NCBI GenBank assembly: GCA_903905505.1
Contig: CAIVGL010000064.1
Location: 1-40,783, forward strand
Length of the DNA: 40,783 bases
Direction of reading: 5' to 3'
Source: an uncultured Bacteroidia bacterium
GTDB lineage: Bacteria; Bacteroidota; Bacteroidia; Bacteroidales; Prolixibacteraceae
A model generated the notes under the pieces. It was not told the origin of the DNA. It worked only from the letters and a program-made list of their open reading frames with translations, and did not search any database. This document shows positions 14,109 through 40,783 of this stretch, in pieces (within the stretch, counting starts at the first letter, position 1; the number at the start of each line of letters is the position of its first letter). The translations under genes and the position numbers were made by a program.

Positions 14109-14133
14109 AAAAAGATTACAAATCAATCTTTTT
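14109..14133. terminator. AT-rich hairpin at the convergent end of exuT
   Basis: A 9-bp stem (arms 14109-14117 and 14125-14133, loop of 7) overlaps the exuT stop codon at 14116-14118 and sits 31 bases past the rightward gene's stop. It has A and T runs on the outer sides but little GC, so it is only a modest terminator candidate. Confidence 0.4.
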
Positions 14134-15450
14134 AAATTTAGGAACTAACAAATGCATGATTGTCCAGGCTAATATGTAAGCAAAAGCACAAATCATAAAC
14201 ATAATACCATATCCAATCCGGATATCACCAGCAGCTTTATAATGGTCAAAGAGCACGCCTGCTGACTTTGCAATCATAATTCCGCCAATGGCCCCAGCCA
14301 TTCCTCCAATGCCTGTCACAGAAGCAATAGCCCGTTTAGGAAACATATCAGAAACAGTGGTGAAAATATTGGCAGACCAGGCCTGATGAGCTGAGGCTGC
14401 AATACCAATGATCACTACAGCATACCACATATTATACCCTCCAAAATATTGCGCCGAAAGGACTAATAACGGGAATAAGGCATAAATAAACATAGCCCTT
14501 TTTCGAGCTACGTTGGCATCCATACCGTGCTCCATAAAATACTTAGGCAACCAACCACCCAAGACACTTCCAAATGTGGTCATGATATAAACAACAGCAA
14601 TAGGAAAACTCACCTCGGTCCCTTTAAGCCCATACTGTTCTTTCAGAAATGCAGGCAACCAAAAAAGAAAAAACCACCAAACAGGATCTGTTAATAGTTT
14701 GCCTATAAAGAATGCCCACGTTTGTCTGAAAGTTAGAAGTTTAAACCAGCTAATCTTAGCTGCAGCATTAGATTCTGCAACTGAAAGTTCATCTTTATCA
14801 CTTAAGATAAAATCATATTCCGCCTGAGATAACTTACCATTCTGAAGCTTATTCTCCGGAGAATCATAAATATAATACCAGAATATCAGCCAAATAAGAC
14901 CAATAGCACCAGTGACTACGAAGGCCATCTGCCAACCCCAGGTGATGGCTATCCAAGGGACAACCAAGGGAGCTACGATGGCTCCAATATTAGTTCCGGA
15001 GTTATATATTCCTGTGGCAAAAGCTCTCTCCTTTTTAGGAAACCACTCGGCGATAGTTTTATTAGCCGCAGGAAAATTCCCAGCCTCTGGAACCCCTAAG
15101 GCAGCCCTAGCTACTCCAAAACCAAAAGGGCTTTTTGCCAAGGCATGTCCAATTGCGGCAAGACTCCAGCCAAACAAAGAGATGGCATACCCGATCTTTG
15201 TTCCAAATCGATCGATTACCCCACCAATAACAAGCATTCCTGATGCATATGCAATTTGAAAACAGATCACAATATTGGCATAAACCGATTCATAACGCAA
15301 CGGATCAGAACCAAATAACCCAGCCCCTTCTAGAAAAGGCTTTAACAGGCTTATAACCTGACGATCAAGGTAATTAATTGTCGTTGCAAAAAATACCAAG
15401 GCACAAATAGTCCATCGATAACTGCCTAACTGTTTATTTAATTCGCTCAT
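14116..15450 (-). CDS. exuT: Hexuronate MFS transporter (ExuT-like, ACS family)
   Basis: A 444 aa major-facilitator permease of the anion:cation symporter family, expected to import galacturonate and/or glucuronate with H+ across the inner membrane. About twelve hydrophobic helices are visible. Family signatures are NYLDRQVISLLKPFL in helix 1, the loop 2-3 motif GGVIDRFGTKIGYAISLFGWS, GVPEAGNFPAANKTIAEWFPKKERAFATGIYNSGTNIGA between helices 4 and 5, and SDMFPKRAIASVTGIGGMAGAIGG in the second half. It is the last gene of a leftward uxaE-uxaC-exuT operon, which fixes uronate as the likely substrate. Sister ACS transporters for galactonate or glucarate cannot be excluded on sequence alone. Confidence 0.85.
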   Translation of the reverse strand: MSELNKQLGSYRWTICALVFFATTINYLDRQVISLLKPFLEGAGLFGSDPLRYESVYANIVICFQIAYASGMLVIGGVIDRFGTKIGYAISLFGWSLAAIGHALAKSPFGFGVARAALGVPEAGNFPAANKTIAEWFPKKERAFATGIYNSGTNIGAIVAPLVVPWIAITWGWQMAFVVTGAIGLIWLIFWYYIYDSPENKLQNGKLSQAEYDFILSDKDELSVAESNAAAKISWFKLLTFRQTWAFFIGKLLTDPVWWFFLFWLPAFLKEQYGLKGTEVSFPIAVVYIMTTFGSVLGGWLPKYFMEHGMDANVARKRAMFIYALFPLLVLSAQYFGGYNMWYAVVIIGIAASAHQAWSANIFTTVSDMFPKRAIASVTGIGGMAGAIGGIMIAKSAGVLFDHYKAAGDIRIGYGIMFMICAFAYILAWTIMHLLVPKFKKIDL

Positions 15451-15517: not shown

Positions 15518-16924
15518 TTATAGTCCAAAATCAAAATAACGCTGCGCATTGTTGTAGGAGATATCTTCAACCATTGAACCTAAAAACTTCAAATCAGCTG
15601 GTAACTCACCATTCACTACATCCTGACCGATCAGGTTGCACAAAATCCGTCGAAAATACTCATGCCGTGAGTAGGATAGAAAACTCCTAGAATCAGTCAA
15701 CATTCCCACAAATCGACTTAATAATCCCATATTCGACAAGGCATTAATCTGAGCGGTCATCCCCTCTTTTTGATCTAAAAACCACCAGCCTGAGCCCCAT
15801 TGAATTTTACCTGGCGTCACACCATCCTGGAAATTGCCAATCATTGTGGCCATCATCTCATTGTCACTCGGATTTAAATTGTAAAGAATGGTGCGCGTTA
15901 ACTTACCCTCAAAATCTAGCTTACCTAGAAATTTAGCTAATGCAGCAGCCATCGAGAAATCGCCAATCGAATCAAACCCCTTATCAGGTCCAACCGTAGC
16001 GTTCATGCGTAAATTATTGTTGCGCAACGCCCCAAGGTGATATTGCTGCGTCCAATTACGTGAGTGGTCCATCACCGCAAATTCATAGAGCATGGCCGAC
16101 TTAAACAGTAATATTTCTTCAAATGAAGCCGATTTTCCAGCTCGAACATTGCTGAAAATCTTTCGTATTTCAGCAATCGTATAATCCTGCGCATAGATCG
16201 TTTCCAATCCATGGTCTGACAACCGACAGCCATTTTGATGAAAATAGTGATGTCTATTTTCTAATGCACCCATAAGCTCATCAAATGTGCGAATAGTGCT
16301 CGCCGAGACTTGCTCTAATTGATCAATATATGCGTTAAATGCTTTAGAATCCTCAATGGCCATTGCTTTATCAGGCCTCCAAGCCGGTATTACCTTCACC
16401 TCAAAACCATCCTTTTGAATGGATTGATGGTAGTGCAAGTCATCAATTGGATCATCGGTCGTGCAGATAACTTTAACATTTGCCCTCTTAATGATTCCTC
16501 GACAACTAAAATCTGGTTGACTAAGCATCTGGTTACAATCATCCCAGATCTGCTTCGCGGTAACAGGACTTAGCAAGGAGTTGATGCCAAAAGGTTTACG
16601 CAACTCTAGGTGAGTCCAATGATACAAAGGATTACGCATGGTATGAGGTGCTGTCTCAGCCCATTTTTGGAACTTTTCCCAGTCAGAAGCCTCTCCAGTG
16701 CAATAGTGCTCTGCGACCCCATTTGTCCGCATGGCACGCCATTTATAATGATCTCCGTGAAGCCAAATTTCTGACAGATTATTAAATCGACGATCTTCAG
16801 CTATCTCTTGTGGTGAAATATGACAATGGTAATCAAAGAGCGGCATCTTCGCCGCATAGTCATGATAGAGTTGCTTGGCAAAGTCAGATTGCAACAAAAA
16901 ATCATCATCCATAAATGGTTTCAT
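15518..16924 (-). CDS. uxaC: Glucuronate (uronate) isomerase
   Basis: UxaC interconverts D-glucuronate with D-fructuronate and D-galacturonate with D-tagaturonate, the entry step of uronate catabolism in the cytoplasm. The 468 aa length is normal for this amidohydrolase-superfamily member. The metal-binding HxH pair is H33 and H35 in FDYHCHIS. Other family stretches are ICTTDDPIDDLHYH, QYHLGALRNNNLRMNATVGPDKGFDSIGD and GMLTDSRSFLSYSRHEYFRRILCNLIG. The N-terminus (MKPFMDDDFLLQSD) is the usual one for the family. It lies 37 bases downstream of uxaE and 67 upstream of exuT on the same strand. Confidence 0.96.
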   Translation of the reverse strand: MKPFMDDDFLLQSDFAKQLYHDYAAKMPLFDYHCHISPQEIAEDRRFNNLSEIWLHGDHYKWRAMRTNGVAEHYCTGEASDWEKFQKWAETAPHTMRNPLYHWTHLELRKPFGINSLLSPVTAKQIWDDCNQMLSQPDFSCRGIIKRANVKVICTTDDPIDDLHYHQSIQKDGFEVKVIPAWRPDKAMAIEDSKAFNAYIDQLEQVSASTIRTFDELMGALENRHHYFHQNGCRLSDHGLETIYAQDYTIAEIRKIFSNVRAGKSASFEEILLFKSAMLYEFAVMDHSRNWTQQYHLGALRNNNLRMNATVGPDKGFDSIGDFSMAAALAKFLGKLDFEGKLTRTILYNLNPSDNEMMATMIGNFQDGVTPGKIQWGSGWWFLDQKEGMTAQINALSNMGLLSRFVGMLTDSRSFLSYSRHEYFRRILCNLIGQDVVNGELPADLKFLGSMVEDISYNNAQRYFDFGL

Positions 16925-16961: not shown

Positions 16962-18209
16962 TTATAATTCAAAAAGTCTTTTCAAATGACGCTCATACAA
17001 ATTCTCCTCTACACACGAACCAATCAAATCACGATGTTTTTTCAACAAATCGGTATAGTGTGTTCCACTCTCCGCGGCAATCTTATATCCAACGTGAATC
17101 AATTGTCTGAAGTTTGGATTGTAATCAGCCTGCCCTGGAATATGGCGAAGGGTATTTGCAAATTTTGCACTATCCCAAAGATTCACCTCTTGAGCCGAAG
17201 GCAATTCAGCCTGTTTAATATCAATGACATCTGCATAAGGAGCACATAACTCCTCCTGACGAGATAACGCTGAAGTGTAAAAATGCTTAGCTAAATCTAA
17301 CGCCTCACCACCAGCAAGAGCTAAACCAATTACCTCTTCAAGCCAAGTCGTACCAGCAGTTTTTATATGTATTCCCTTATCGTATTTCTTAATGATTCTG
17401 GCAATCTCGGGATAGATTGAAAATTTATCTGAACCCGAATGAACACTTAATTTTAGATTAGCAGGTAATCCAAACTCTTTGATGGCATAATCAATAACTA
17501 AAATATCTTCTTCAAATTCACGAGCAAATTGTGCAATGTCACCCACATAATTAACCCCTTTATTGAAACGACCGGTGAACTTAGGAGCAATAGTCTGAAC
17601 TGGAATGCCATTTTCAGCGATCATCTTTAAAATAAAGAATAGTTCGACTGGCGTTTGTGGGACCTCCACCTCATCGATTGAAACTTCAGTAACAAAATTA
17701 GCTGCACCTTTCTGCTCCGCAATGAAACGGTATATACCACCTGCCTCAACCATAGCGGCAAGGAACTTCTGCGCAATCTGCTCAAGCAGTTGATCCGAGA
17801 TGATAAATGGAGCTGCAATACCAGGAATGTTTAAAGAACCAGCATATTTCGCACAAGAAGCTTTAAAACTGGTAATTTCTGACGGAGTCGATAAGGTGCC
17901 AATCTTGCTGGCCACATCCAACGTGAAAAAGTCAGACGAGGAGAGAAATCCCTGAACATTAGAAAGATTAATATGATCAGCATCAACAAAATACTGACCC
18001 TTATACCCTAACGCTAAAACAGCAGCATCAGCCTCAATTCGAGTATCTTCTGGCTTTGAATGAATATACGAATGCTCTCTATTTGACTTATTCCAAACTG
18101 GAATTATCTCTATTCCCTTTTGTGCCGCCTTTGTTACCGCCCTTAATTGAGCTTCGCCTTGATGACCAAAACGATCTCCAATGCCTAAACTGTATTTACC
18201 TATCTGCAT
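16962..18209 (-). CDS. uxaE: Tagaturonate/fructuronate epimerase (UxaE family)
   Basis: UxaE-type enzymes epimerise D-tagaturonate to D-fructuronate, joining the galacturonate branch to the glucuronate branch without UxaB or UxaA. The 415 aa protein begins MQIGKYSLGIGDRFGHQGEAQL, and contains AVLALGYKGQYFVDADHINL, KMIAENGIPVQTIAPKFTGRFNKGVNYVGD and LSVHSGSDKFSIYPEI, stretches I associate with this metal-dependent family. The absence of tagaturonate reductase and altronate dehydratase from the window agrees with this role. It is the first gene of the leftward operon and starts next to the probable LacI operators. The family assignment is good; the exact reaction is inferred from family and neighbours. 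Confidence 0.85.
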   Translation of the reverse strand: MQIGKYSLGIGDRFGHQGEAQLRAVTKAAQKGIEIIPVWNKSNREHSYIHSKPEDTRIEADAAVLALGYKGQYFVDADHINLSNVQGFLSSSDFFTLDVASKIGTLSTPSEITSFKASCAKYAGSLNIPGIAAPFIISDQLLEQIAQKFLAAMVEAGGIYRFIAEQKGAANFVTEVSIDEVEVPQTPVELFFILKMIAENGIPVQTIAPKFTGRFNKGVNYVGDIAQFAREFEEDILVIDYAIKEFGLPANLKLSVHSGSDKFSIYPEIARIIKKYDKGIHIKTAGTTWLEEVIGLALAGGEALDLAKHFYTSALSRQEELCAPYADVIDIKQAELPSAQEVNLWDSAKFANTLRHIPGQADYNPNFRQLIHVGYKIAAESGTHYTDLLKKHRDLIGSCVEENLYERHLKRLFEL

Positions 18210-18279: not shown

Positions 18280-18293
18280 CGTGTTCGTTCACG
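18280..18293. promoter_or_regulatory. Probable LacI-family operator, copy 1
   Basis: CGTGTTCGTTCACG is an imperfect palindrome (CGTG, six central bases, CACG), the form expected for a LacI-family operator. It shares 13 of 14 bases with a second copy 91 bases to the right, and the matching extends a few bases outside (CCGTG on the left, CACGA on the right). It lies in the probable leader of the leftward operon. Binding by the adjacent LacI protein is inferred. Confidence 0.65.
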
Positions 18294-18370: not shown

Positions 18371-18384
18371 CGTGTTCGTACACG
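18371..18384. promoter_or_regulatory. Probable LacI-family operator, copy 2
   Basis: CGTGTTCGTACACG is the second copy, differing from the first at one central base, and it is the more symmetrical of the two (CGTGT/ACACG arms). It sits just upstream of the TAATTTTG box at 18403, overlapping where the -33 element of that promoter should be. Autoregulation of the lacI operon is therefore plausible. Confidence 0.65.
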
Positions 18385-18529: not shown

Positions 18530-19582
18530 ATGGTGAAAAATATTCGAATTTTAGATATTGCTCTTAAGGCAGGCGTTTCCATTGGCACAGTGGATCGGGT
18601 CATACATCAACGTGGCGAAGTGTCGGAGTCTACGAGAGAGAAGATCTTGAAGATCATTCAAGACTTCGATTACAGGCCTAACATTTTAGCCAGTTCACTG
18701 GCTTCAAAAAAGGTCACCACCTTTGCATCGCTCACACCTATGGCTTTAGATCAAGATTCATTCTGGTCGAAGCCTCAAATCGGGATAAACAAAGCCATCA
18801 ATCAGCTCAAACAATTTGGGGTACAGCTTGACCCCCACTACTTTAAAATGGAAGATCCCCAATCTTTCACCCGAGAGGCTAATAAGATAATAGATTCTTC
18901 ACCTGATGGCATCTTACTCGCACCATGGGGACATCGAGAATCATTGAAGTTTACAGAGCTGCTAGATCAACAATCCATTCCATATGTGTTTATTGATTCA
19001 CATCTAGAAGAGGCTAATCCCATTGGGTTTATTGTGCAAGATTCAGAGCAGAGTGGCTATTTAGCAGCTAAGCTGATCGATTATGGCCTTGCACCTCAGA
19101 GTAATATCATGATCATTCATATTACAAAGAATTTGCAAAATGCCAATCATCTTTTGCAACGGGAGCGCGGCTTTTTAAGCTATTTTGAATCTCAACAATC
19201 AAGAGGTCATTCGATTATCAAACTTGAAGTGGAGGCCGAAAATATCTCTTCTTCCGAGAAATTCAACCTATTACTTGGTCATTCAAAAGGGATTGATGCG
19301 GTCTATGTTTCGAATTCGAAAGTACATCTCATTGCAACTCTTTTCGATCACAATAGCCTTAGACCACGAATCATTGGTTACGATATCATTCCTAAGAACA
19401 TTGAATTACTCCTGAATGGGAAGATCGATTTCTTACTTAATCAAAATCCAGAAATTCAAGGATATAAAGCAATAAACCTGTTGTTTGATCAGGTGATCAG
19501 AAAAGAAAAGGTTACCAAATCAAATTATACAGCTATCGATATTATCACCAAAGAGAACTTGAAATATTACGTATCCATCTAA
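18530..19582 (+). CDS. LacI-family transcriptional regulator of the uronate locus
   Basis: A 350 aa regulator. Residues 5-60 form the LacI helix-turn-helix and hinge (RILDIALKAGVSIGTVDRVIHQRGEVSESTREKI, then YRPNILASSLAS), and residues 65-350 a periplasmic-binding-protein-like effector domain (PDGILLAPWG, YVFIDSHLEEANPIGFIVQDSEQSGYLAAKL). It is the first gene of the rightward operon, 25 bases before the fructuronate reductase, and sits beside two LacI-type palindromes. Derepression by a uronate, or by an aldonate intermediate such as mannonate or gluconate, is likely; the effector is not predictable. A repressor role is the usual mode but is inferred. Confidence 0.88.
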   Translation: MVKNIRILDIALKAGVSIGTVDRVIHQRGEVSESTREKILKIIQDFDYRPNILASSLASKKVTTFASLTPMALDQDSFWSKPQIGINKAINQLKQFGVQLDPHYFKMEDPQSFTREANKIIDSSPDGILLAPWGHRESLKFTELLDQQSIPYVFIDSHLEEANPIGFIVQDSEQSGYLAAKLIDYGLAPQSNIMIIHITKNLQNANHLLQRERGFLSYFESQQSRGHSIIKLEVEAENISSSEKFNLLLGHSKGIDAVYVSNSKVHLIATLFDHNSLRPRIIGYDIIPKNIELLLNGKIDFLLNQNPEIQGYKAINLLFDQVIRKEKVTKSNYTAIDIITKENLKYYVSI

Positions 19583-19607: not shown

Positions 19608-20459
19608 ATGAAAAAGATATCATTTGATGATTTAAATGGAAAAGTTTGCGTAATCACTGGAGGAGCAGGAATAATTGGTCAATCCCTTGTAAACGCCCTT
19701 GCTTCTGTTGGAACGAAAGTTGCCATCATTGGAAGAAATGAGGAGAAAACCAAGGCTGTTGCAGCCGAGTTGTCTAAAGTTCACCAAGCGACCATTATTG
19801 GAATAAAAGCAGATGTGCTAGACAAAAACTCATTGGAGTTAGCGAAAATAGAGATCAATCGCCTACTCGGACCTATTGACCTACTTATCAATTGCGCAGG
19901 TGGTAATTCACCGAAAGCTACAACCCAAGTCGAACAGCTTGAAGAGGCCAATCTATCTGATTTAAGTAAAACATTTTACGGTCTTCAACTTGAAGGTTTT
20001 GATGAAGTATTTGACTTGAATTTCAAAGGCACTATTCTGCCATGCATGGTCTTTACAACTGATATGTTAGATAAAAAGTCTGGCGTGGTATTAAATGTAT
20101 CCTCCATGAATGCCTATCATCCCCTAACGAAGATCCCAGCCTATTCGGCTGCAAAAGCCTCAGTTAACAATTTCACTGAATGGCTAGCTGTTCATCTAGC
20201 TAAAGCTGGCATCCGTGTCAATGCTGTAGCGCCAGGTTTTTTTCTTAGTGATCAGAACCGCTTTTTAGTAATCGATGAAAAGACAGGCGATTATTCAGCA
20301 CGTGGGAAGAAAATCGCACAAAATACACCAATGGGAAAATTTGGAAATCCAGATGATCTGCAAGGTGCCGCACTCTTTCTATTATCAGATATTTCAGCCT
20401 TTGTTACAGGCATTGTCGTTCCTGTCGATGGCGGATTTAATGCTTACAGTGGAGTTTAA
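19608..20459 (+). CDS. uxuB: SDR-family D-mannonate oxidoreductase (fructuronate reductase)
   Basis: A 283 aa short-chain dehydrogenase expected to reduce D-fructuronate to D-mannonate with NAD(P)H. The cofactor motif is TGGAGIIG (17-24), the structural motif NCAGG (95-99), and the catalytic set S165/S166, Y179 and K183 (YSAAK), with the PG turn NAVAPGFF and C-terminal PVDGGF. It belongs to the SDR type of mannonate oxidoreductase, unrelated in fold to the long-chain Escherichia UxuB. A characteristic insertion (NSPKATTQVEQLEE) follows the NCAGG motif. The substrate is inferred from the adjacent uxaC/uxaE genes; closely related SDRs act on gluconate, so this is not certain. Confidence 0.82.
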   Translation: MKKISFDDLNGKVCVITGGAGIIGQSLVNALASVGTKVAIIGRNEEKTKAVAAELSKVHQATIIGIKADVLDKNSLELAKIEINRLLGPIDLLINCAGGNSPKATTQVEQLEEANLSDLSKTFYGLQLEGFDEVFDLNFKGTILPCMVFTTDMLDKKSGVVLNVSSMNAYHPLTKIPAYSAAKASVNNFTEWLAVHLAKAGIRVNAVAPGFFLSDQNRFLVIDEKTGDYSARGKKIAQNTPMGKFGNPDDLQGAALFLLSDISAFVTGIVVPVDGGFNAYSGV

Positions 20460-20501: not shown

Positions 20502-21581
20502 ATGACATTGAAACTTAGAAAAACATTTACTTGGTCGCTATTAGTTCCCACGAGCATGGGTGTTCGACTAACGCCAGCTAATGGCCAGCCGGTTCACTCG
20601 AGTGATCTTTTTCAGATGTACGCCACCAGTGCCGAGACAAACGTGGCAAGTATTTCATCCTATCTGGGACTGCCCGTAAAAGTGCTTACCACCTTTGTTA
20701 AGGAGAGTCCAATTGCTCAGTTTATAAAAAGCAACTTGAAAAGTCGCAATATGGATTTTGAAGGACCTGAAGTCGCGCAAGAGGATCCATGGGGTTATCG
20801 ACATCAATTTAACATTGCAGATAGCGGCTTTGGATCGCGCGGACCACGTGTACAAAACGATAGAGCAGGTGAAGTTGGCAGAACATTGAATGTTAAAGAT
20901 TTCGACTTAGAGCAGATTTTTAAAGTCCAGGGGGTTCAGATCGTTCATCTATCTGGATTAATTGCAGCACTGTCTGCTGAGACGAGCAATTTCTGTCTTC
21001 AGCTAGCGCGAACAGCAAAAAAGGAAGGCTCATTAATCTCTTTTGATCTAAATTACAGGGCCTCTTTTTGGAAAGGACGTGAGAAAGAGCTTAGCGCGAC
21101 CTTTGCCGAAATTGCTTCACTATCCGATATCTTAATTGGAAACGAAGAAGACTTTCAGTTATGCTTAGGTATTGAAGGGCCTAAAACTGGTGGTGAAGGA
21201 ATTGCCAGTGAAATTGAGGGTTTCAAAGGGATGATTGGCCGAGTAAAAGAAGCTTTTCCAAATACTTCGGTCTTTGCAACAACCTTACGACAGGTTATCA
21301 GCTCAAATGAGCATCTATGGGGTGCGATTATGCTTGAGGGTGACAATTGGCAGATCGTTGAGCCACGTACCATAGCAGTTCTTGACCGCATTGGTGGTGG
21401 TGATGGCTTTGTAGGAGGATTATTATATGGAATATTAAAAGGCTGGTCATCTGATAAATGGATTCAGTTTGGCTGGGCCTCAGGTGCTCTTGCCACAACT
21501 TTCCTAACCGACTATGCACAACCAGCCGACGAAGAGATGGTGTGGAGTATCTGGAAAGGGAATGCCCGAGTAAAAAGATAA
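20502..21581 (+). CDS. PfkB-family sugar kinase (aldonate or KDG kinase)
   Basis: A 359 aa ribokinase-fold kinase. The PfkB signature 2 region reads DRIGGGDGFVGGLL at 295-308 with catalytic base D301, and FDLNYRASFW is the KDG-kinase-like segment near residue 185. The N-terminal substrate region is atypical: the usual GE(I/V)M start and the GGAE loop are replaced by SMGVRLTP and ATSAETNVA. Automatic annotation would call it 2-keto-3-deoxygluconate kinase. With no mannonate dehydratase or KDPG aldolase in the window and gnd in the operon, phosphorylation of D-gluconate to 6-phosphogluconate is at least as plausible. Family secure, substrate open. Confidence 0.82.
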   Translation: MTLKLRKTFTWSLLVPTSMGVRLTPANGQPVHSSDLFQMYATSAETNVASISSYLGLPVKVLTTFVKESPIAQFIKSNLKSRNMDFEGPEVAQEDPWGYRHQFNIADSGFGSRGPRVQNDRAGEVGRTLNVKDFDLEQIFKVQGVQIVHLSGLIAALSAETSNFCLQLARTAKKEGSLISFDLNYRASFWKGREKELSATFAEIASLSDILIGNEEDFQLCLGIEGPKTGGEGIASEIEGFKGMIGRVKEAFPNTSVFATTLRQVISSNEHLWGAIMLEGDNWQIVEPRTIAVLDRIGGGDGFVGGLLYGILKGWSSDKWIQFGWASGALATTFLTDYAQPADEEMVWSIWKGNARVKR

Positions 21582-21653: not shown

Positions 21654-22943
21654 ATGATCTACTTTCAAATTGGTTCTGCGGACACTGCCCTATCTTCTGA
21701 AGATTTAAAACAGGGTTTGAATACAGCTCTTGATTTGCTTGGAAAGAAGCATAAAGTCCTAGCAATTCCTCCTGACTTCACACGTCTGGCTTCTAGAACT
21801 GGCGAATTAACTCGCTATGCTTATGATTATTATGGAGAAAAACTCACTGACATACTGCCCGCTTTAGGCACTCACACGCCCATGACGTCGCATCAGATCT
21901 CTGAGATGTTTGGAGAGATCCCACAAACGCTATTCCGGGAACATGACTGGCGCAACGATGTGATCACCCTTGGAGAGGTTCCAGCTGAATATATTCGTGA
22001 AGTCTCGCAAGATGCGGTAGATTTTGCTTGGCCTGCACAAGTTAATAAACTGCTGGTAGAAGGTGGCTTTGATTTGATCTTATCGCTAGGTCAAGTTGTT
22101 CCTCATGAGGTTGTTGGGATGGCCAATCACAATAAAAATATTTTTGTCGGAACAGGCGGTGCAGAAGGGATCAATAAGAGTCATTTCATTGGCGCTGCCT
22201 TCGGAATGGAGAAAATGATGGGACGCAGTCAGACGCCTGTACGCAAAATATTTAATTATGCGAGTCATCATTTCGCCAAACACCTTCCTATACTGTATAT
22301 CCTTACTGTTGTTGGTCGAGATGTTCAAGATGGAAAACTAAAGGTTCGTGGTCTATTTATCGGCGACGACCAGGAAGTATTTAAGGCAGCCGCTAAGCTC
22401 TCACTTGAAGTGAACTTTAATCTGCTCGATAGGCCATTCAAAAAAGTGGTGGTCTACCTTGATCCTGCCGAATTCAAGTCGACTTGGTTGGGAAACAAAT
22501 CTATCTATCGGACGCGGATGGCTATTGCTGATCAGGGAGAACTTATTGTCCTTGCACCTGGTCTAACTGAGTTTGGAGAAGATAAGGAGATTGATCAGAT
22601 GATTCGTAAATATGGCTATTTCGGTACCCCGGAAACCTTAAAAGCGGTTCGCGAAAATGAAGATCTGCGTAATAACTTAAGTGCCGCAGCTCATCTGATC
22701 CATGGCTCCTCAGAGGGTCGTTTTTCGATTACTTATTGCCCAGGGAACGAAAGCAATAATCTAAATCAGCAAGAGATTGAAAGTGTAGGATTTAAATATG
22801 ATAACTTAAAGGAAAGAATTAAACAATACGACCCTCAGAAACTTAAGGATGGTTGGAATATTGACTCAAATGGGGAGGAGTTTTATTACATCTCGAACCC
22901 TGCAATTGGGCTCTGGGCTGTACGCGAAAGATTTAAAGACTAA
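21654..22943 (+). CDS. LarA-superfamily nickel-pincer racemase/epimerase, candidate D-mannonate/D-gluconate 2-epimerase
   Basis: LarA-type enzymes invert the C2 centre of alpha-hydroxy acids using a covalently bound nickel-pincer nucleotide. In this 429 aa protein the substrate/cofactor motif IPPDFTR (D41, R44) and GTH (H74) are followed by PHEVVGMANHNK, placing H151 and K161 ten residues apart, and H177 26 residues after H151. These are the same offsets as H174, K184 and H200 of Lactiplantibacillus LarA, where the lysine carries the cofactor and the histidines ligate or face nickel. The usual SGG before the lysine is changed to ANH, a divergence from lactate racemase. D-mannonate and D-gluconate are C2 epimers, and a gluconate 2-epimerase is, to my recollection, known in this superfamily. 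Cofactor genes larB, larC and larE are not in the window. Confidence 0.8.
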   Translation: MIYFQIGSADTALSSEDLKQGLNTALDLLGKKHKVLAIPPDFTRLASRTGELTRYAYDYYGEKLTDILPALGTHTPMTSHQISEMFGEIPQTLFREHDWRNDVITLGEVPAEYIREVSQDAVDFAWPAQVNKLLVEGGFDLILSLGQVVPHEVVGMANHNKNIFVGTGGAEGINKSHFIGAAFGMEKMMGRSQTPVRKIFNYASHHFAKHLPILYILTVVGRDVQDGKLKVRGLFIGDDQEVFKAAAKLSLEVNFNLLDRPFKKVVVYLDPAEFKSTWLGNKSIYRTRMAIADQGELIVLAPGLTEFGEDKEIDQMIRKYGYFGTPETLKAVRENEDLRNNLSAAAHLIHGSSEGRFSITYCPGNESNNLNQQEIESVGFKYDNLKERIKQYDPQKLKDGWNIDSNGEEFYYISNPAIGLWAVRERFKD

Positions 22944-22946
22944 AGA

Positions 22947-23945
22947 ATGAGATTAGAAAAAATTAAGTGGGGATTGATAGGATGTGGTGATGTTACAGAA
23001 GTTAAAAGTGGACCACCGCTTCAACTAACGGAGCATTCATCTTTAGTTGCCGTTATGCGTCGAAATGGAGCTTTGGCTGAAGATTATGCTAAGCGTCATA
23101 AGGTGCCGAAATGGTACACCGATGCGTCTGAGCTTATCAATGACCCGGAAGTGAATGCAGTCTATATTGCAACGCCACCAGATGCGCATTGTGAATATGC
23201 CATTCAAGCTATGAAAGCGGGAAAACCGGTCTATGTCGAAAAGCCAATGGCCCGAAACTATGCCGAGTGTCTAGAGATGATCAAAGTTTCAGAGATGACA
23301 AATATTCCGCTTTTTACCGCTTATTACCGAAGAACGCTCCCCTTATTTGTCAAAGTTAAGGAACTTGTCGATTCGAATCAGATCGGACAAATAAGATTAG
23401 TAAACGTTCGCTTTTACGCACCACCAGAAAATGATCAAGAGCGATTAGTGGCTCCATGGCGTGTTCAGCCTGCGATTGCAGGAGGCGGATTACTATTCGA
23501 CCTTGCTTCGCACACCCTTGACTTCCTTGATTTTGTATTTGGACCAATAAGTCAAGTTAAGGCGAACGCTATGAATCAAGCAGGCCTCTACCCCGCCGAA
23601 GATCTAGTGATGGCAAATTGGCTCCATCAAACAGGCATTGCTGGCACAGGAACGTGGTGCTTTACTACTTCAGACAAAAGCACACTCGATGAGGTTGAAA
23701 TCATTGGTGAAAAAGGAAGAATAAGCTTTTCCACATTCAAAAATTCTCCGGTAATACTTGAAAACAACATTGGAAAAGAAGAATTTAGCTTTGAACGCCC
23801 AAAACATGTGCAGTCCTATTTAATGGCAGATATTGTTGCCGAATTGCGTGGCGAAGGGGAATCGCCCTCCAACGGCATCTCTGGAGCACGAACCAGTTGG
23901 GTTATGGATGAGATGGTAAAAAGTTATTACAACACGAAAGGTTAA
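22947..23945 (+). CDS. Gfo/Idh/MocA-family NAD(P)-dependent oxidoreductase
   Basis: A 332 aa oxidoreductase with an N-terminal Rossmann domain (GLIGCGDVTEVKSGP at about 8-22, with a shortened GxGxxx loop), the catalytic-lysine motif VEKPMARN near residue 97, and the (beta/alpha) C-terminal domain with a YYRRTLPLF segment and the FDLASHTLDFLDF stretch carrying the conserved histidine. Only three bases separate it from the LarA-like gene and one from pdxB, so it is very probably translationally coupled. Such enzymes oxidise sugars, inositols or aldonates; nothing in the sequence fixes the substrate. A role in uronate or aldonate side-reactions is inferred from position only. Confidence 0.85.
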   Translation: MRLEKIKWGLIGCGDVTEVKSGPPLQLTEHSSLVAVMRRNGALAEDYAKRHKVPKWYTDASELINDPEVNAVYIATPPDAHCEYAIQAMKAGKPVYVEKPMARNYAECLEMIKVSEMTNIPLFTAYYRRTLPLFVKVKELVDSNQIGQIRLVNVRFYAPPENDQERLVAPWRVQPAIAGGGLLFDLASHTLDFLDFVFGPISQVKANAMNQAGLYPAEDLVMANWLHQTGIAGTGTWCFTTSDKSTLDEVEIIGEKGRISFSTFKNSPVILENNIGKEEFSFERPKHVQSYLMADIVAELRGEGESPSNGISGARTSWVMDEMVKSYYNTKG

Positions 23946-23946
23946 G

Positions 23947-25068
23947 ATGAAAATTGTAATTGACGATAAGATCCCCTATATCAAAGGTGTTTTAGAACCC
24001 TTCGCAGATGTTATCTATCTCTCAGGGGATAAAACAAACGGTGAAGTGGTTAAAGATGCAGATGCCTTAATTACGCGAACTCGGACCATTTGCAATGAAG
24101 AAATACTTATCGGTTCTACGGTTAAATTTATCGCTACCGCCACCATTGGATTCGACCATATAGACACAGATTATTGTGAAAAAGCCAATATTGCCTGGAC
24201 TAACGCTCCAGGGTGCAATTCAAAATCGGTGGAGCAATATATTGCTTCTGCCTTGATGGTACTAGCCGAAAAACATCAATTCTCACTAACAGAAAAAACG
24301 ATTGGTATTGTTGGCGTTGGGAATGTAGGATCTAAAGTGGCGCGATTGTGCGAGACCTTGGGAATGAGGGTGCTGTTAAATGATCCTCCCCGCGTTCGGA
24401 GAGAAAAACTAAAGGGTTATGTTGGATTGGATAAGATTCTTGAACAATCAGATATCATTACTCTTCACGTCCCCTTAAATATAGATGGCGAAGACCTGAC
24501 CTTTCACTTAGCCGATTCCAACTTCTTTTCAAAAGCAAAACAAAAACCTATCCTCATTAATTCTTGTCGAGGTGAAATTATAGATACCAACTCACTTAAA
24601 CAAGCCCTTAAAGATGGACAACTATCTGGCGCTGTGATTGATTGCTGGGAAAATGAGCCTGCTATTGACCTTGAACTCCTTTCGTTAGTAGACTTAGCAA
24701 CGCCACATATTGCGGGCTATTCAAGAGATGGGAAAGCCAATGGCACTAGCATGAGCATTCGAGCGCTGAGTAAATTTTTCAAGTTGGGAATAGACAATTG
24801 GAAATGTTCAGATATTGAATTGCCAGATAACCTTGATATCTTTATCGATGGAACAGGGAAAGCAACGCAGCAAATTCTCTCAGACGCAATTCTAGCCACG
24901 TATGACATCCGTTCAGATGATAAAAAACTCAGAAGTTCGGTGAAAACATTTGAAAAACAACGAGGTGACTATCCTGTACGAAGAGAATTTCCAGTGTACC
25001 GGATATTCTGCAAAATCAACAATATCAAAGCAATAACTAAGCTTAAGCAATTAGGTTTTAAACTATAG
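23947..25068 (+). CDS. pdxB: 4-phosphoerythronate dehydrogenase PdxB
   Basis: PdxB oxidises 4-phospho-D-erythronate in the deoxyxylulose-5-phosphate-dependent pathway to pyridoxal phosphate. The 373 aa protein is a D-isomer-specific 2-hydroxyacid dehydrogenase: NAD-binding GIVGVGNVGSKVA, catalytic arginine in NSCRGEIID, glutamate in CWENEP and histidine in ATPHIAGYS. The N-terminal ATATIGFDHIDT and APGCNSKSVEQYIAS and the extra C-terminal dimerisation domain (after about residue 290) distinguish PdxB from 3-phosphoglycerate dehydrogenase. It is embedded in the uronate operon, one base after the Gfo/Idh/MocA gene and 25 before gnd. That is unusual for a vitamin biosynthesis gene. Action on another hydroxy acid cannot be excluded. 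Confidence 0.85.
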   Translation: MKIVIDDKIPYIKGVLEPFADVIYLSGDKTNGEVVKDADALITRTRTICNEEILIGSTVKFIATATIGFDHIDTDYCEKANIAWTNAPGCNSKSVEQYIASALMVLAEKHQFSLTEKTIGIVGVGNVGSKVARLCETLGMRVLLNDPPRVRREKLKGYVGLDKILEQSDIITLHVPLNIDGEDLTFHLADSNFFSKAKQKPILINSCRGEIIDTNSLKQALKDGQLSGAVIDCWENEPAIDLELLSLVDLATPHIAGYSRDGKANGTSMSIRALSKFFKLGIDNWKCSDIELPDNLDIFIDGTGKATQQILSDAILATYDIRSDDKKLRSSVKTFEKQRGDYPVRREFPVYRIFCKINNIKAITKLKQLGFKL

Positions 25069-25093: not shown

Positions 25094-26542
25094 ATGAAAA
25101 AAGCTGATATTGGCCTAATTGGCCTAGCCGTAATGGGCGAAAACCTTGTGCTAAACATGGAAAGCAAAGGGTTTACCGTAGCTGTTTACAACCGTACAAC
25201 AGATAAAGTTGACAAGTTTGTCAATGGTCGTGGAGCTGGAAAAAATTTCATTGGTTGTCATACCGTTGCCGATCTTTGCGCGAATCTAGAGCGCCCAAGA
25301 AAAGTAATGATGCTGGTTAAGGCAGGTCAACCGGTTGATGATTTCATTGAACAGATCATCCCGCACCTTGAGCCGGGAGATATCATCATTGATGGCGGAA
25401 ACTCCCATTTCCCTGACACCATCAGGCGAACTAGCTATGTTGAAAGCAAAGGATTACTATTCGTAGGGTCAGGTGTCTCTGGCGGCGAAGAGGGAGCCTT
25501 ATTAGGACCATCTATGATGCCAGGGGGATCTCCAGCGGCTTGGCCATCGATCAAGACTATTTTTCAAGCTGTTGCCGCCAAAGTTGGCGACGAGCCTTGT
25601 TGCGAATGGGTTGGCGAGAATGGTGCGGGTCATTTTGTGAAGATGGTACACAATGGCATCGAATATGGTGATATGCAGATTATCTGCGAGGCTTATCAGA
25701 TGATGAAAGAGTTGCTTGGGATGAATGCCGATGAGATGCATCAAGTGTTTTCCGACTGGAACAAAGGCGATCTAGATAGCTACCTGGTTGAGATCACCCG
25801 AGATATTTTAGGCTATCGCGATGAAAATGGGGAAGCCTTAGTTGAAAAAATATTGGATACTGCAGGTCAAAAAGGGACAGGGAAATGGACTGGCGTTTCA
25901 GCTCTTGACCTTGGCATTCCACTAACTCTAATTGGAGAATCGGTCTTTGCGCGCTGCTTATCAGCTCAGAAAGATTTACGTGTAAAAGCCTCCAAGTTTT
26001 TAACCGGACCAGAGAAGCACTTTAGAGGAGATCGGAATCAATTTATCAGCGACTTAAAAGATGCATTACTTGGTGCTAAGATCATCTCATACGCGCAAGG
26101 CTATGATTTAATGGGAGAAGCGGCTAAAGAATACAAATGGACCCTTAACAACGGTGGTATAGCGCTGATGTGGCGTGGAGGATGTATCATCCGTTCGGCT
26201 TTCTTAGGTAAGATCAAAGAGGCGTTCGACAAAAATCCGAAATTAGAACATTTACTTCTGGACGAATATTTTAAAGTAACCATTGAAAAAGCTCAGACAG
26301 GATGGCGTAGAGTTGTGGCCAGTGCCATTATGCATGGCGTTCCAGCTCCTTGCTTAGCAGCAGCATTAACCTACTTTGATGGCTTCCGCAGTGAACGCTT
26401 ACCGGCAAACCTACTTCAAGCGCAACGTGATTATTTCGGTGCCCACACCTACGAGCGAATCGACAAACCGCGAGGAGAGTTCTTCCATACGAATTGGACT
26501 GGAAGAGGGGGCGATACCGCATCATCAACCTATAGCGTATAG
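25094..26542 (+). CDS. gnd: 6-phosphogluconate dehydrogenase, decarboxylating
   Basis: Gnd converts 6-phosphogluconate to ribulose 5-phosphate and CO2, producing NADPH. The 482 aa length is typical. Seen: the nucleotide-binding loop GLAVMGENLVLN with NRTTDKV after the second strand, GGNSHFPDT, SGVSGGEEGALLGPSMMPGG, and the active-site helix GAGHFVKMVHNGIEYGD with K183, H186, N187 and E190 at the canonical positions. The C-terminal tail HTNWTGRGGDTASSTY is the substrate-contacting tail of the long form. It is last in the operon, directly before a strong terminator. No zwf or pgl is nearby, which points to a gluconate-derived rather than glucose-6-phosphate-derived substrate. Confidence 0.95.
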   Translation: MKKADIGLIGLAVMGENLVLNMESKGFTVAVYNRTTDKVDKFVNGRGAGKNFIGCHTVADLCANLERPRKVMMLVKAGQPVDDFIEQIIPHLEPGDIIIDGGNSHFPDTIRRTSYVESKGLLFVGSGVSGGEEGALLGPSMMPGGSPAAWPSIKTIFQAVAAKVGDEPCCEWVGENGAGHFVKMVHNGIEYGDMQIICEAYQMMKELLGMNADEMHQVFSDWNKGDLDSYLVEITRDILGYRDENGEALVEKILDTAGQKGTGKWTGVSALDLGIPLTLIGESVFARCLSAQKDLRVKASKFLTGPEKHFRGDRNQFISDLKDALLGAKIISYAQGYDLMGEAAKEYKWTLNNGGIALMWRGGCIIRSAFLGKIKEAFDKNPKLEHLLLDEYFKVTIEKAQTGWRRVVASAIMHGVPAPCLAAALTYFDGFRSERLPANLLQAQRDYFGAHTYERIDKPRGEFFHTNWTGRGGDTASSTYSV

Positions 26543-37550: not shown

Positions 37551-38693
37551 TTAGACGTGTTTTAATTGAATGCCAATCCCAGGCAATTCATTGAGCGTGA
37601 CTCTCCCGTTTACAATGGTCACGCCATTGTAGATATCATTATTTATCAATAAATTCCCATCTAAATCAGCCCAGTCCGCTAAAGGGGCTAATTGTGCAGC
37701 AGCCGAGATGGCACAAGAGGTTTCAGTCATACAACCAACCATAACCTTCATTCCCATTGTCTTTGCCATATTGGCCATCTTATGCGCATTTCGCATCCCT
37801 CCGCACTTCATCAGCTTAATATTAATGCCCGAATAGACCTTATGGGTTGCAAGAACATCATAGATCGTCTGAACCGCTTCATCGGCCATGGTTGGAAGCG
37901 GACTATGTTCGGTAAGCCACGCCATATCATCAATAGCATATTTACTCATGGGTTGTTCCACAAAAACAACTCCTCTTTCAGCCAACCAGTGGATCATATC
38001 AAGAGCCATATTACGATCTTTCCACCCTTGATTGACATCGACACAAATTGGAACATCCGTAATGCTCCGAATAGCTTGAATCATCTCTTTATCCGTCTCC
38101 CGACCTAATTTAACCTTTAAGATTTTAAATTCAGCAGCCTCTCGCACTTTCTCCTTCACAACTTCAGGCGCATCTATCCCAATGGTAAAGCTAGTATTTG
38201 GTGTTTTAGTCACATCGAGCCCCCAGAGCTTATGCCAAGGCTTTTGTAAGATCTTACCGACTAAATCGTGCAAAGCAATATCAACAGAAGCTTTAGCGGC
38301 ATAATTACCCTTATCTATGCCATCGATATAAGCAATAATAGTCTCCAATTCAAAAGGATCGTGAAAAGCCGACAGATCAACCTTATTCAGAAATTCGGTC
38401 ACCGATTTATGACTCTCCCCTAAGTAAGGTGGCATACTTGCCTCACCATAACCAATTAACCCATCGTATTCAATCTCAACCAACATAACTGGCGTTGTCG
38501 TCCTTGAGCTCGTAGCAATAGTAAAGACATGCTTTAATTGCAGTTCATAGGGTTTAAACCGCAATTTCAGATTGGATTTACGCAGGGTATTGCTCTTTTT
38601 TGAACGATTAGCTGCATCTACTGAACCTACCACTGGAAAAGCTAAAGACCCAGCAACCAATCCACTTAGTTTTATAAAATTTCTTCTACTCAT
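37551..38693 (-). CDS. Tat-exported dipeptide epimerase (L-Ala-D/L-Glu epimerase-like)
   Basis: An enolase-superfamily enzyme expected to epimerise the D-Glu residue of the murein dipeptide L-Ala-D-Glu. The 380 aa protein starts with a twin-arginine signal (SRRNFIK, then a hydrophobic stretch to about residue 22). The superfamily active site is complete: K193/K195 (KVK), metal ligands D219, E246 and D271, and K293 (NIKLMKCGG). It lies 47 bases downstream of an NlpC/P60 gene on the same strand, the enzyme that would release its substrate. Muconate-lactonizing-type relatives are less likely given the KxK and NIKLMK motifs. Export outside the cytoplasm is notable, since Escherichia YcjG and Bacillus YkfB are cytoplasmic. 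Confidence 0.85.
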   Translation of the reverse strand: MSRRNFIKLSGLVAGSLAFPVVGSVDAANRSKKSNTLRKSNLKLRFKPYELQLKHVFTIATSSRTTTPVMLVEIEYDGLIGYGEASMPPYLGESHKSVTEFLNKVDLSAFHDPFELETIIAYIDGIDKGNYAAKASVDIALHDLVGKILQKPWHKLWGLDVTKTPNTSFTIGIDAPEVVKEKVREAAEFKILKVKLGRETDKEMIQAIRSITDVPICVDVNQGWKDRNMALDMIHWLAERGVVFVEQPMSKYAIDDMAWLTEHSPLPTMADEAVQTIYDVLATHKVYSGINIKLMKCGGMRNAHKMANMAKTMGMKVMVGCMTETSCAISAAAQLAPLADWADLDGNLLINNDIYNGVTIVNGRVTLNELPGIGIQLKHV

Positions 38694-38740
38694 CGGGATA
38701 TACCTTTGTTCTATTATTTATTTTTCTAGTCTTATAAAAA

Positions 38741-39907
38741 TCAATACCATTTGTGCAATTTCAAGGGTACAACACCTTTTGAAGAGGGGTAACCAATTAT
38801 TCTTCGCGCTGAAAGTAAGTTCTCAAACAACTCATTATTAAAATTAGATCTTTTTTTATCTAAACTATTGATATGTACACTCCCTGACTCATGAAGCACC
38901 TCACTATCACCAATATATAATCCAATATGATTAACCCTTTTGGTCTGCTGGGATCCAAAAAATAACAAATCTCCTTTTTGTAATTTCTCCCAACCGCCAC
39001 TTACATCTATTTCTGTTCCATGGTGAACTTGTTGCGAGGCATCACGCTCCACGATCACACCATTTAGGAAGCATATCGTTTTAATAAATCCACTGCAATC
39101 CATCCCTTTAGAGGATGTGCCTCCCCATAAATAGGGAAATCCCATCAATTGTTTTCCAGTTCTAATCATACGCTCACTGTGCAAGGCCGCTGTATCTTTC
39201 CAACGATTAAAATTAATCCAGTTGGCATCTGCGACATACCCTTTACGGCCGTCAGGAAGTGACACACTAGAACTTCCTTTATTTTCAGAGTGCCGTACCA
39301 CTATAGCACCAGCAACAAGATCACTTAGAACGACTGACCGCTTCACATCAGCGAAGACATTCCCTTCTGAACTAGTGTATATTATTCGATCTGATTTGCG
39401 CCAATTCTCAAGAGCAGCAAAGGTCAACTGGTGAACAGCTGATTTATTAGTCCAGCCCACATAATTATCTGGTGTTTGAATTAATATCCAACCTTCATAA
39501 CTTTTCAATACTCTCACTGGAGTGCCCATAATCGCTTGTGAGGCCATCTCTGATGAATGGGCAGGCTTAACACGCATATTCGCAATACTCAAGGTCACCA
39601 GTCCCCAAACTTTATCCACATGAAGCGTGTCAGGCAATAGCAATACACTATCAATCACAGTGATTCCCTTGTCGTGTATCAATTTTAATACCTCAACTTT
39701 AGCTTCGGGGAAAAGCGATTCTCCTTTTAAAGTCAGGGCTTGACCTTGGTGTTCAACAAGTGTAAAATTGCATATTCCAACACGCTTATCAGGGAGCCAA
39801 TTCTTTACGATACTATCGATTTCATGCTGTAGAGGCTCTATCGATTGAGCCTGACAACCGAATAACGACAAAACATAAATGGCTGAAACGATAAAAACAT
39901 ACCTCAT
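38741..39907 (-). CDS. NlpC/P60 (C40) murein endopeptidase, probable lipoprotein
   Basis: A 388 aa cell-wall peptidase. From the ATG at 39907 the protein has a lipoprotein signal peptide ending in the lipobox LFGC at residue 18. SH3b-type wall-binding domains occupy about residues 100-235, and the C-terminal NlpC/P60 domain has the triad C271 (GMDCSGF), H327 (VNHIGLYIG) and H339 (HESGS). It should cut gamma-D-Glu-diaminopimelate bonds in peptidoglycan fragments, releasing L-Ala-D-Glu. The frame extends to an ATG at 39952, but the shorter start gives a proper signal peptide and lies downstream of a -7 box at 39941-39948. It resembles Bacillus YkfC and, like ykfC, neighbours a dipeptide epimerase. 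Confidence 0.9.
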   Translation of the reverse strand: MRYVFIVSAIYVLSLFGCQAQSIEPLQHEIDSIVKNWLPDKRVGICNFTLVEHQGQALTLKGESLFPEAKVEVLKLIHDKGITVIDSVLLLPDTLHVDKVWGLVTLSIANMRVKPAHSSEMASQAIMGTPVRVLKSYEGWILIQTPDNYVGWTNKSAVHQLTFAALENWRKSDRIIYTSSEGNVFADVKRSVVLSDLVAGAIVVRHSENKGSSSVSLPDGRKGYVADANWINFNRWKDTAALHSERMIRTGKQLMGFPYLWGGTSSKGMDCSGFIKTICFLNGVIVERDASQQVHHGTEIDVSGGWEKLQKGDLLFFGSQQTKRVNHIGLYIGDSEVLHESGSVHINSLDKKRSNFNNELFENLLSARRIIGYPSSKGVVPLKLHKWY

Positions 39908-39940
39908 AACTGAAACCGTATTAGAAACAGAGTATTTAAA

Positions 39941-39948
39941 CAAAAATA
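39941..39948 (-). promoter_or_regulatory. Possible -7 box for the NlpC/P60 gene
   Basis: CAAAAATA on the plus strand reads TATTTTTG on the minus strand, matching TAnnTTTG 33 bases upstream of the ATG at 39907. It supports that start over 39952. No upstream TTG at normal spacing was found. Confidence 0.33.
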
Positions 39949-39993
39949 GCAATTATTCAGTAGCTCACTAAAGCGAAGCTTCATGTATACACT

Positions 39994-40783
39994 TTAATAT
40001 TTTGCACTTGGCACTGCATTCAATTGATCGTATACCGACTGCAGTATTCCGGTTCGAATATTTAACTCACTTAACTTATTATTCTCCCGCGTAGGATTAA
40101 CACGATTCGACAAGAATATATACACTAATCCATTGGATGGGTCAGCCCAAAAGAAGGTACCTGTAAAACCTGAATGACCAAAGCTTTGAGGTGAAGCGGA
40201 AGTGCAAGGATACTTATTTTGCTTATCAACTTTTGGATCCTCTAATGATGGCTTATCAAAGCCCAATCCTCTCCTATTCTGCGGAAACTGAATTTGGTTA
40301 AATTGCCTAAAAGTTGAATTTTTAAAGTATTCCTTACCTCCATAGGTCCCTTCCTGCAAATACATTTGCACAATCTTGGCTAAATCGTTTGCGGAGGAGA
40401 ACAACCCTGCATTTCCTGAGACACCACCTAAGACAGCAGATGCTTCATCGTCAACACTATTTTTCAGTAATACTTTGCGAAATACATCATCATATTCTGT
40501 CGGAACAAGTCTGTCATCAGAAAACTTCTTAAAAGGCAGGTAAGTCGCAGTAGAGGCACCTAGAGGCCTGTAAAAACTCTGATCTAAGTAATCGGGGTAT
40601 TTTACACCTGCAAGCTTGGTTATAACCTCAGGCCATAACACGAAAGAAAGATCACTGTATACGTATTTTCCCCTATTTTTAAGCGGAGATATTCGAATCT
40701 GAGTATACACAACCTCCTTAAACTTATTATTTAAGTAAAGTCCTGGAATGACTTCAAGATTAAAATTTCTATTCATTTTTAAA
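39994..40783 (-). CDS. Beta-lactamase-fold serine hydrolase domain, partial; probably C-terminal part of a GH3/beta-lactamase fusion
   Basis: The frame is open to the window edge with no stop, so the N-terminus lies outside. An internal methionine codon at 40774-40776 is unlikely to be the start. The visible 263 residues are the second half of a penicillin-recognising domain: YSDLSFVLWPEVI (the YxN-type motif as YSD), GGVSGNAGLFSSANDLAKIVQMYLQEG, and FGHSGFTGTFFWADP (HSG third motif) with IFLSNRVNP. This order and wording resemble the C-terminal half of Bacteroidota proteins fusing a GH3 N-acetylglucosaminidase to a beta-lactamase domain. The SxxK nucleophile is not in the window. It lies 41 bases upstream of the NlpC/P60 frame on the same strand. 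Confidence 0.78.
   Translation of the reverse strand, partial: LKMNRNFNLEVIPGLYLNNKFKEVVYTQIRISPLKNRGKYVYSDLSFVLWPEVITKLAGVKYPDYLDQSFYRPLGASTATYLPFKKFSDDRLVPTEYDDVFRKVLLKNSVDDEASAVLGGVSGNAGLFSSANDLAKIVQMYLQEGTYGGKEYFKNSTFRQFNQIQFPQNRRGLGFDKPSLEDPKVDKQNKYPCTSASPQSFGHSGFTGTFFWADPSNGLVYIFLSNRVNPTRENNKLSELNIRTGILQSVYDQLNAVPSAKY

Follow-up and report, generated by a model that had tools for sequence, protein, structure and literature searches.

A group-18 LarA-type nickel-pincer epimerase in a Bacteroidota hexuronate operon, a probable link from D-mannonate to D-gluconate

C2 epimerisation between D-mannonate and D-gluconate by nickel-pincer enzymes of the LarA superfamily was assayed for groups 19 and 20 in Desguin 2020, where group 18 is predicted to be a hexonate epimerase (available text of PMC7583248), and NCBIfam carries group 18 as model NF052594 under the name 'nickel-dependent putative hexonate epimerase', i.e. 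with an activity that the family label keeps putative. As a route, mannonate-gluconate epimerisation feeding 6-phosphogluconate was proposed for Thermotoga (T. maritima) by Rodionova 2012, as quoted in PMC6978723. The original prediction on the gene studied here, which correctly placed a gluconate 2-epimerase in the superfamily, saw its role in a hexuronate locus as a new or little-described pathway link; this was overstated, since proposal, assays and family name all precede it. A second likeness is the galacturonate pathway of Lactobacillus suebicus, in which isomerase, epimerase and reductase steps are joined to 6-phosphogluconate and its dehydrogenase, the difference being that mannonate is phosphorylated first and that the epimerase has no gene assigned (accessible part of PMC6978723). 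What is new here is the absence of matches to UxuA and KDPG aldolase, a conserved cluster with interchangeable kinases, a gluconokinase fusion and an operator-like pair. In the searchable literature, with most subscription journals outside our reach, we found no assay of any group-18 enzyme.

Among described enzymes we compare the protein, here LarA18, with GntE2 (LarAH20) of T. maritima, an assayed D-gluconate 2-epimerase whose gene we take to be TM0442. In the available text of PMC6978723 the T. maritima gene under discussion is TM0042, which encodes an aldose-1-epimerase-like protein; since this differs from the locus tag assumed above, the LarA homologue may have been overlooked in that text. 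LarA18 resembles GntE2 (structure 4NAR, per PMC7583248) in its predicted fold, its cofactor and catalytic residues, loop E and the alpha-11 tryptophan as well as in a hexuronate context with a gluconate kinase (the latter as quoted in PMC6978723), yet it belongs to a separate group with 24% identity in a structural alignment, reads ANHN rather than SGGL before the cofactor lysine and has V153 in place of S156 and, before the catalytic lysine, N281 in place of G286. Both UxuA and KDPG aldolase are present in T. maritima, whereas the LarA18 genome gave a match to neither.

The gene lies in the window, the whole stretch of 40,783 nucleotides analysed here, as an intact ORF with its ATG at 21654 and a stop codon that ends at 22943. 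Its product scores 33.2 bits with Pfam Lar_N (cut-off 23.3) and 656 bits with NF052594 (NPN_18_hexonate; cut-off 500) over model positions 3-410 of 411, and as we found no difference from that family (LarAH group 18), it is a member. The sole solved relative found by sequence or group-18 profile is 4NAR (E 2e-33 with the single sequence, 3.9e-47 with the profile). A model of the protein alone, built on 41 group-18 sequences (mean pLDDT 92.1), is predicted to have the LarA fold: Foldseek ranks 4NAR top, followed by lactate and malate racemases, and its 19 chains at E <= 0.001 comprise 18 that are LarA-type by title plus 4NAR. Because Lar_N, NF052594, the 4NAR sequence match and the predicted fold agree, the family match is not due to chance. 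Phylogenetic placement gave the same answer: in a 68-row tree a single branch (support 100/99) sets all 54 group-18 rows, among them the fused and Catenovulum proteins described below, apart from nine lower-scoring homologues, the GntE2 fragment and four outgroup rows, although the tree program warns of long branches. Judged by sequence, LarA18 is thus a group-18 member of the nickel-pincer LarA superfamily, and the original prediction, which had placed it there and not among lactate racemases, was correct in its family reading. Malate racemase was rejected with 35.5 bits for NF052593 (cut-off 500) and 21 bits for NF052595 (cut-off 462), and no lactate racemase model was among the NCBIfam matches. 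LarA18 is the one Lar_N match of its genome. Viral contigs and phages held no relatives, and a plasmid search returned four records, two of them group-18-like and two Embleya matches at about 29% identity.

Residues point in the same direction. H151, K161 and H177 stand at the positions and spacing that had been claimed, D41, R44 and H74 are conserved as claimed, and K282, a further catalytic residue absent from the earlier list, joins them; each is found in 52 of the 52 aligned group-18 sequences, as are E152, V153 and W278. Placed on LarA via GntE2, R44, K161 and H177 correspond to the cofactor residues R75, K184 and H200, and D41, H74, H151 and K282 to the catalytic residues D72, H108, H174 and K298, from which catalytic roles in LarA18 may be carried over by analogy. 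The ANH that had been read in place of SGG before the lysine is indeed there, A157-N158-H159 occupying the position of the GntE2 SGG. With regard to substrate, E152 and V153 (F175 and F176 in LarA) and W278 are the loop E-V and the alpha-11 tryptophan given for groups 18-20 in the available text of PMC7583248, and the former pair matches the first half of the GntE signature, a 2024 rule which asks for E, V, A and H at LarA F175, F176, W358 and T359 (PMC11770544, seen in part). The A-H half is likely, but not certain, to be A346-H347, which is invariant in 41 group-18 sequences and aligned with A351-H352 of GntE2; the doubt arises because the 2020 paper puts GntE2 N348 at the LarA W358 position (PMC7583248, part available), and N348 aligns with N341 of LarA18, near-invariant in group 18, rather than with A346. 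For this region separate 4NAR alignments (single sequence and profile) were used, as the 52-sequence alignment places the last part of the 4NAR fragment wrongly.

LarA18 is encoded in a divergent locus (Table 1), one arm of which carries the MFS carrier, UxaC and UxaE genes, the other those for LacI, mannonate oxidoreductase, PfkB kinase, LarA18, Gfo/Idh, PdxB and Gnd, with gaps of 3, 1 and 25 bases between genes 3' of LarA18. We consider it probable that LarA18 is a nickel-pincer-nucleotide-dependent C2 epimerase that interconverts D-mannonate and D-gluconate and feeds uronates into the pentose-phosphate pathway. D-Galacturonate or D-glucuronate would be imported by the MFS carrier and converted by UxaC to tagaturonate or fructuronate, which UxaE would merge; the SDR enzyme would reduce fructuronate to mannonate, and LarA18 would epimerise mannonate at C2, passing a hydride to the K161-bound cofactor, whose nickel would be held by H177, while H74 and H151 would serve as acid and base. 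Phosphorylation by the PfkB kinase would then yield 6-phosphogluconate, and Gnd would form ribulose 5-phosphate and CO2, the reducing power from its reaction balancing that spent by the reductase. It is very improbable, to our minds, that LarA18 acts instead on another hexonate or aldarate of uronate catabolism, e.g. altronate/allonate or glucarate/mannarate: other sugar acids are raised for group 19 in Desguin 2020 (available text of PMC7583248) and UxaC with UxaE would permit acids derived from tagaturonate, but the operon reductase is named for mannonate, no altronate gene is found in the operon among Pfam and NCBIfam matches, and both the downstream Gnd and a GntK fusion (see below) point to gluconate.

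Table 1. Features of the LarA18 locus, with positions in the window.
Feature	Position	Strand	Remarks
MFS transporter, probable hexuronate carrier	14116..15450	-	TIGR00893 (D-galactonate transporter) 215.5 bits, below cut-off 395
UxaC uronate isomerase	15518..16924	-	NCBIfam NF002794 654.8 bits, cut-off 387
UxaE tagaturonate epimerase	16962..18209	-	Pfam UxaE 185.4 bits
Operator-like palindrome CGTGTTCGTTCACG	18280..18293	+	one mismatch to CGTGTNCGNACACG; between UxaE and LacI
Operator-like palindrome CGTGTTCGTACACG	18371..18384	+	between UxaE and LacI
LacI-family regulator	18530..19582	+	Pfam LacI, Peripla_BP_4
D-mannonate oxidoreductase / fructuronate reductase, SDR type (UxuB role)	19608..20459	+	NCBIfam NF006132 369.6 bits, cut-off 281
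PfkB-family kinase (PfkB-A clade), probable gluconate (or mannonate) kinase	20502..21581	+	Pfam PfkB 71.7 bits
LarAH group 18 nickel-pincer epimerase	21654..22943	+	429 aa; D41, R44, H74, H151, K161, H177, K282; probable specificity residues E152-V153, W278, N341, A346-H347
Gfo/Idh/MocA oxidoreductase	22947..23945	+	3 bases after LarA18; directly downstream in 28/51 loci
PdxB-like 4-phosphoerythronate dehydrogenase	23947..25068	+	NF001309 457.7 bits, cut-off 434; near LarA18 in 32/51 loci
Gnd, decarboxylating 6-phosphogluconate dehydrogenase	25094..26542	+	TIGR00873 762 bits, cut-off 426.7

The locus had been called a complete hexuronate locus, which is right in that the neighbours are uronate genes and wrong in that the canonical set is incomplete, a gap unnoticed in that reading. 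In the LarA18 genome (G000), a draft that is 97.3% complete, searches with PF03786 for UxuA and PF01081 for KDPG aldolase, the two families covered, gave no match, and both were positive in T. maritima, E. coli and Bacteroides controls. The canonical hexuronate pathway, an adapted Entner-Doudoroff route through UxuA and KDPG aldolase, is therefore not visible here, and mannonate seems to exit via LarA18 and Gnd; glucose-6-phosphate dehydrogenase is encoded on a different contig. Among 61 relatives, G000 included, 37 have LarA18 above the cut-off, 18 of them without a UxuA match and six (G000 and five others) without either UxuA or KDPG aldolase, three of the six being congeners of 2.8-2.9 Mb (G000, G250, G253). 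In a sample of the phylum LarA18 exceeds the cut-off in 14 of 247 genomes, with UxuA in three and KDPG aldolase in 12 of the 14, and the two that lack both are G000 and G124. Since G124, a member of another family whose genome is a single contig (99% complete) and whose LarA18 gene (L073) sits between PfkB-A and Gnd, shows the same absence, the incompleteness of a draft cannot be the whole reason. Overall there is no anticorrelation between LarA18 and UxuA, full-length UxuA occurring in 12 of the 37 LarA18-positive versus five of the 24 other relatives; the LarA18 route is an added route that has turned into the only visible one in some genomes.

Gene context was counted over 51 distinct LarA18 proteins, with loci of identical LarA18 (e.g. 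L087-L090, L092, L101) entering once, the truncated LarA18 of L046 included here though outside the 52-sequence alignment, and both L077 (where a simple ORF caller chose longer overlapping ORFs) and L079 (not group 18) left out. UxuB lies within six genes of LarA18 in 41 of the 51 loci, and for a kinase and Gnd the counts are 39 and 42; the gene order is UxuB-kinase-LarA18-(Gfo/Idh)-(PdxB)-Gnd, and wherever Gnd is present it lies downstream on the same strand and within four genes. Five of the nine loci without Gnd are at a contig edge (L032, L036, L040, L046, L098) and four have room for it (L047-L049 from Treponema, and L075). PdxB places a vitamin B6 gene within a sugar-acid operon in 32 of the 51.

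The kinases are of several types: PfkB-A in 29 loci (directly upstream of LarA18 in 25 of the 51), PfkB-B in five and a relative of PF00365 phosphofructokinase in five, the split between PfkB-B and KdgK being set by us at 31.5% identity, while the tree does not separate PfkB-B from the KdgK-like rows next to it. Two of the PF00365 proteins, from Treponema (L048, L049), score 215 bits and may be ordinary glycolytic enzymes, so that the 39 kinase loci could be 37; the others (L071, L084, L105) score 119 to 132 bits, stand in a row with a HAD_2-family protein before LarA18 (L071:10637-12895, L084:10730-12974, L105:8670-10997), in L071 and L084 after UxuB, and may be sugar-acid kinases. A HAD_2-family protein alone precedes LarA18 in L043 (9099-9983) and L044 (4644-5621); three of the HAD proteins were tested against NCBIfam without a match. 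A KDG route with PfkB as KDG kinase is unlikely: the closest solved relatives of the PfkB kinase in our operon are 4gm6 and 2afb (KDG kinase), but PfkB-A forms a clade of its own (29 rows), to which the KDG-kinase-like neighbours of Eda do not belong, and KDPG aldolase gave no match.

A single ORF of 589 aa in Saccharobesus litoralis joins a GntK-type gluconokinase to LarA18 and has larB, tagaturonate epimerase (uxaE), gnd and uxaC as neighbours, and in Catenovulum adriaticum the gluconokinase and LarA18 genes overlap by one base and are followed by larC and larB. Neither 'racemase' nor 'gluconokinase' appears anywhere in the main text of PMC7953866, which describes S. litoralis and so seems not to discuss the fused gene. 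In a search that covered gluconokinases of the GntK type, the cut-off was exceeded in none of the 61 genomes of the relatives set and in two of 14 control genomes; PfkB or PFK genes therefore take the place that GntK has in the fusion. In our view, nothing else in the gene context argues as strongly that epimerisation and phosphorylation of a sugar acid are consecutive steps as the presence of unrelated kinase families at one site of the cluster.

Which of the two steps comes first is less clear from gene order, as UxuB-kinase-LarA18-Gnd is also collinear with a route in which the kinase phosphorylates mannonate and LarA18 is the missing 6-phosphomannonate 2-epimerase that yields 6-phosphogluconate. 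A kinase-first order was shown in L. suebicus extracts (accessible part of PMC6978723), and group 18 conserves H350-G-S-S-E-x-R356 (H350, G351 and R356 in 52/52, S352 and E354 in 51/52, S353 in 50/52), a stretch of which nine lower-scoring homologues share only G351 and R356. Nevertheless, we regard this order as rather unlikely, for loop E-V and W278 are residues of enzymes assayed on free mannonate, and the fused partner is of the GntK type, whose E. coli representative is reported not to act on mannonate (quoted in PMC6978723). A bolder version, in which group 18 is a 6-phosphomannonate 2-epimerase with HGSSExR holding the phosphate and, in a lineage of small genomes that lack UxuA and KDPG aldolase, is the one way out for carbon from hexuronates, strikes us as quite unlikely. 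Besides gene order, the lack of anticorrelation with UxuA and the four Gnd-less loci, what speaks against free mannonate and gluconate is the high KM for mannonate of the assayed GntEs, 17 mM for group 20 and 120 mM for group 19 (available text of PMC7583248). Clade, loop E-V, operon and kinase fusion lend good support to D-mannonate/D-gluconate, the pair that the original prediction had also judged to fit best, as the likely substrates of LarA18. If so, a whole pectin-sugar catabolic pathway in some Bacteroidota would require a rare nickel cofactor, and carbon from uronates would reach the pentose-phosphate pathway instead of pyruvate via KDPG. Clean systems for testing the group-18 substrate are the GntK-LarA18 fusion and the genomes with neither UxuA nor KDPG aldolase, which may perhaps help to name the missing L. 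suebicus enzyme.

As for cofactor supply, the larB, larC and larE genes that the original prediction had wanted sought in the genome are contiguous as larE-larC-larB on another contig (C11:157095-159815), each above its own cut-off, so the objection that they are missing does not apply and the cofactor would be made from elsewhere in the genome. Next after larB in S. litoralis comes a gene (L107:11723-12406) whose annotation is TauE/SafE sulfite exporter and which may concern sulfur or metal supply for the cofactor.

The two arms of our locus are probably controlled by the LacI-type regulator at two palindromes (Table 1). With up to two mismatches the pattern has two matches in the window versus 0.28 expected, but 4 of 100 shuffles reach two and the pattern was drawn from the same region, so this test is weak by itself. 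No such site, at up to two mismatches, was found in 18 kb scanned around larE-larC-larB. More telling are 24 other loci that have LarA18 and a LacI of more than 35% identity, 21 of which carry a site with no more than one mismatch upstream of LacI; the three others are L096, L040, where the contig is cut close upstream, and L105, where a site is just outside the scanned region.

Further along the window (37551-40776), genes for an enolase-superfamily protein, an NlpC/P60 peptidase and a beta-lactamase-family protein stand in a row that resembles a murein recycling set. With these neighbours the enolase-superfamily protein (37551-38693) is not favoured as a mannonate dehydratase and may be a murein dipeptide epimerase.
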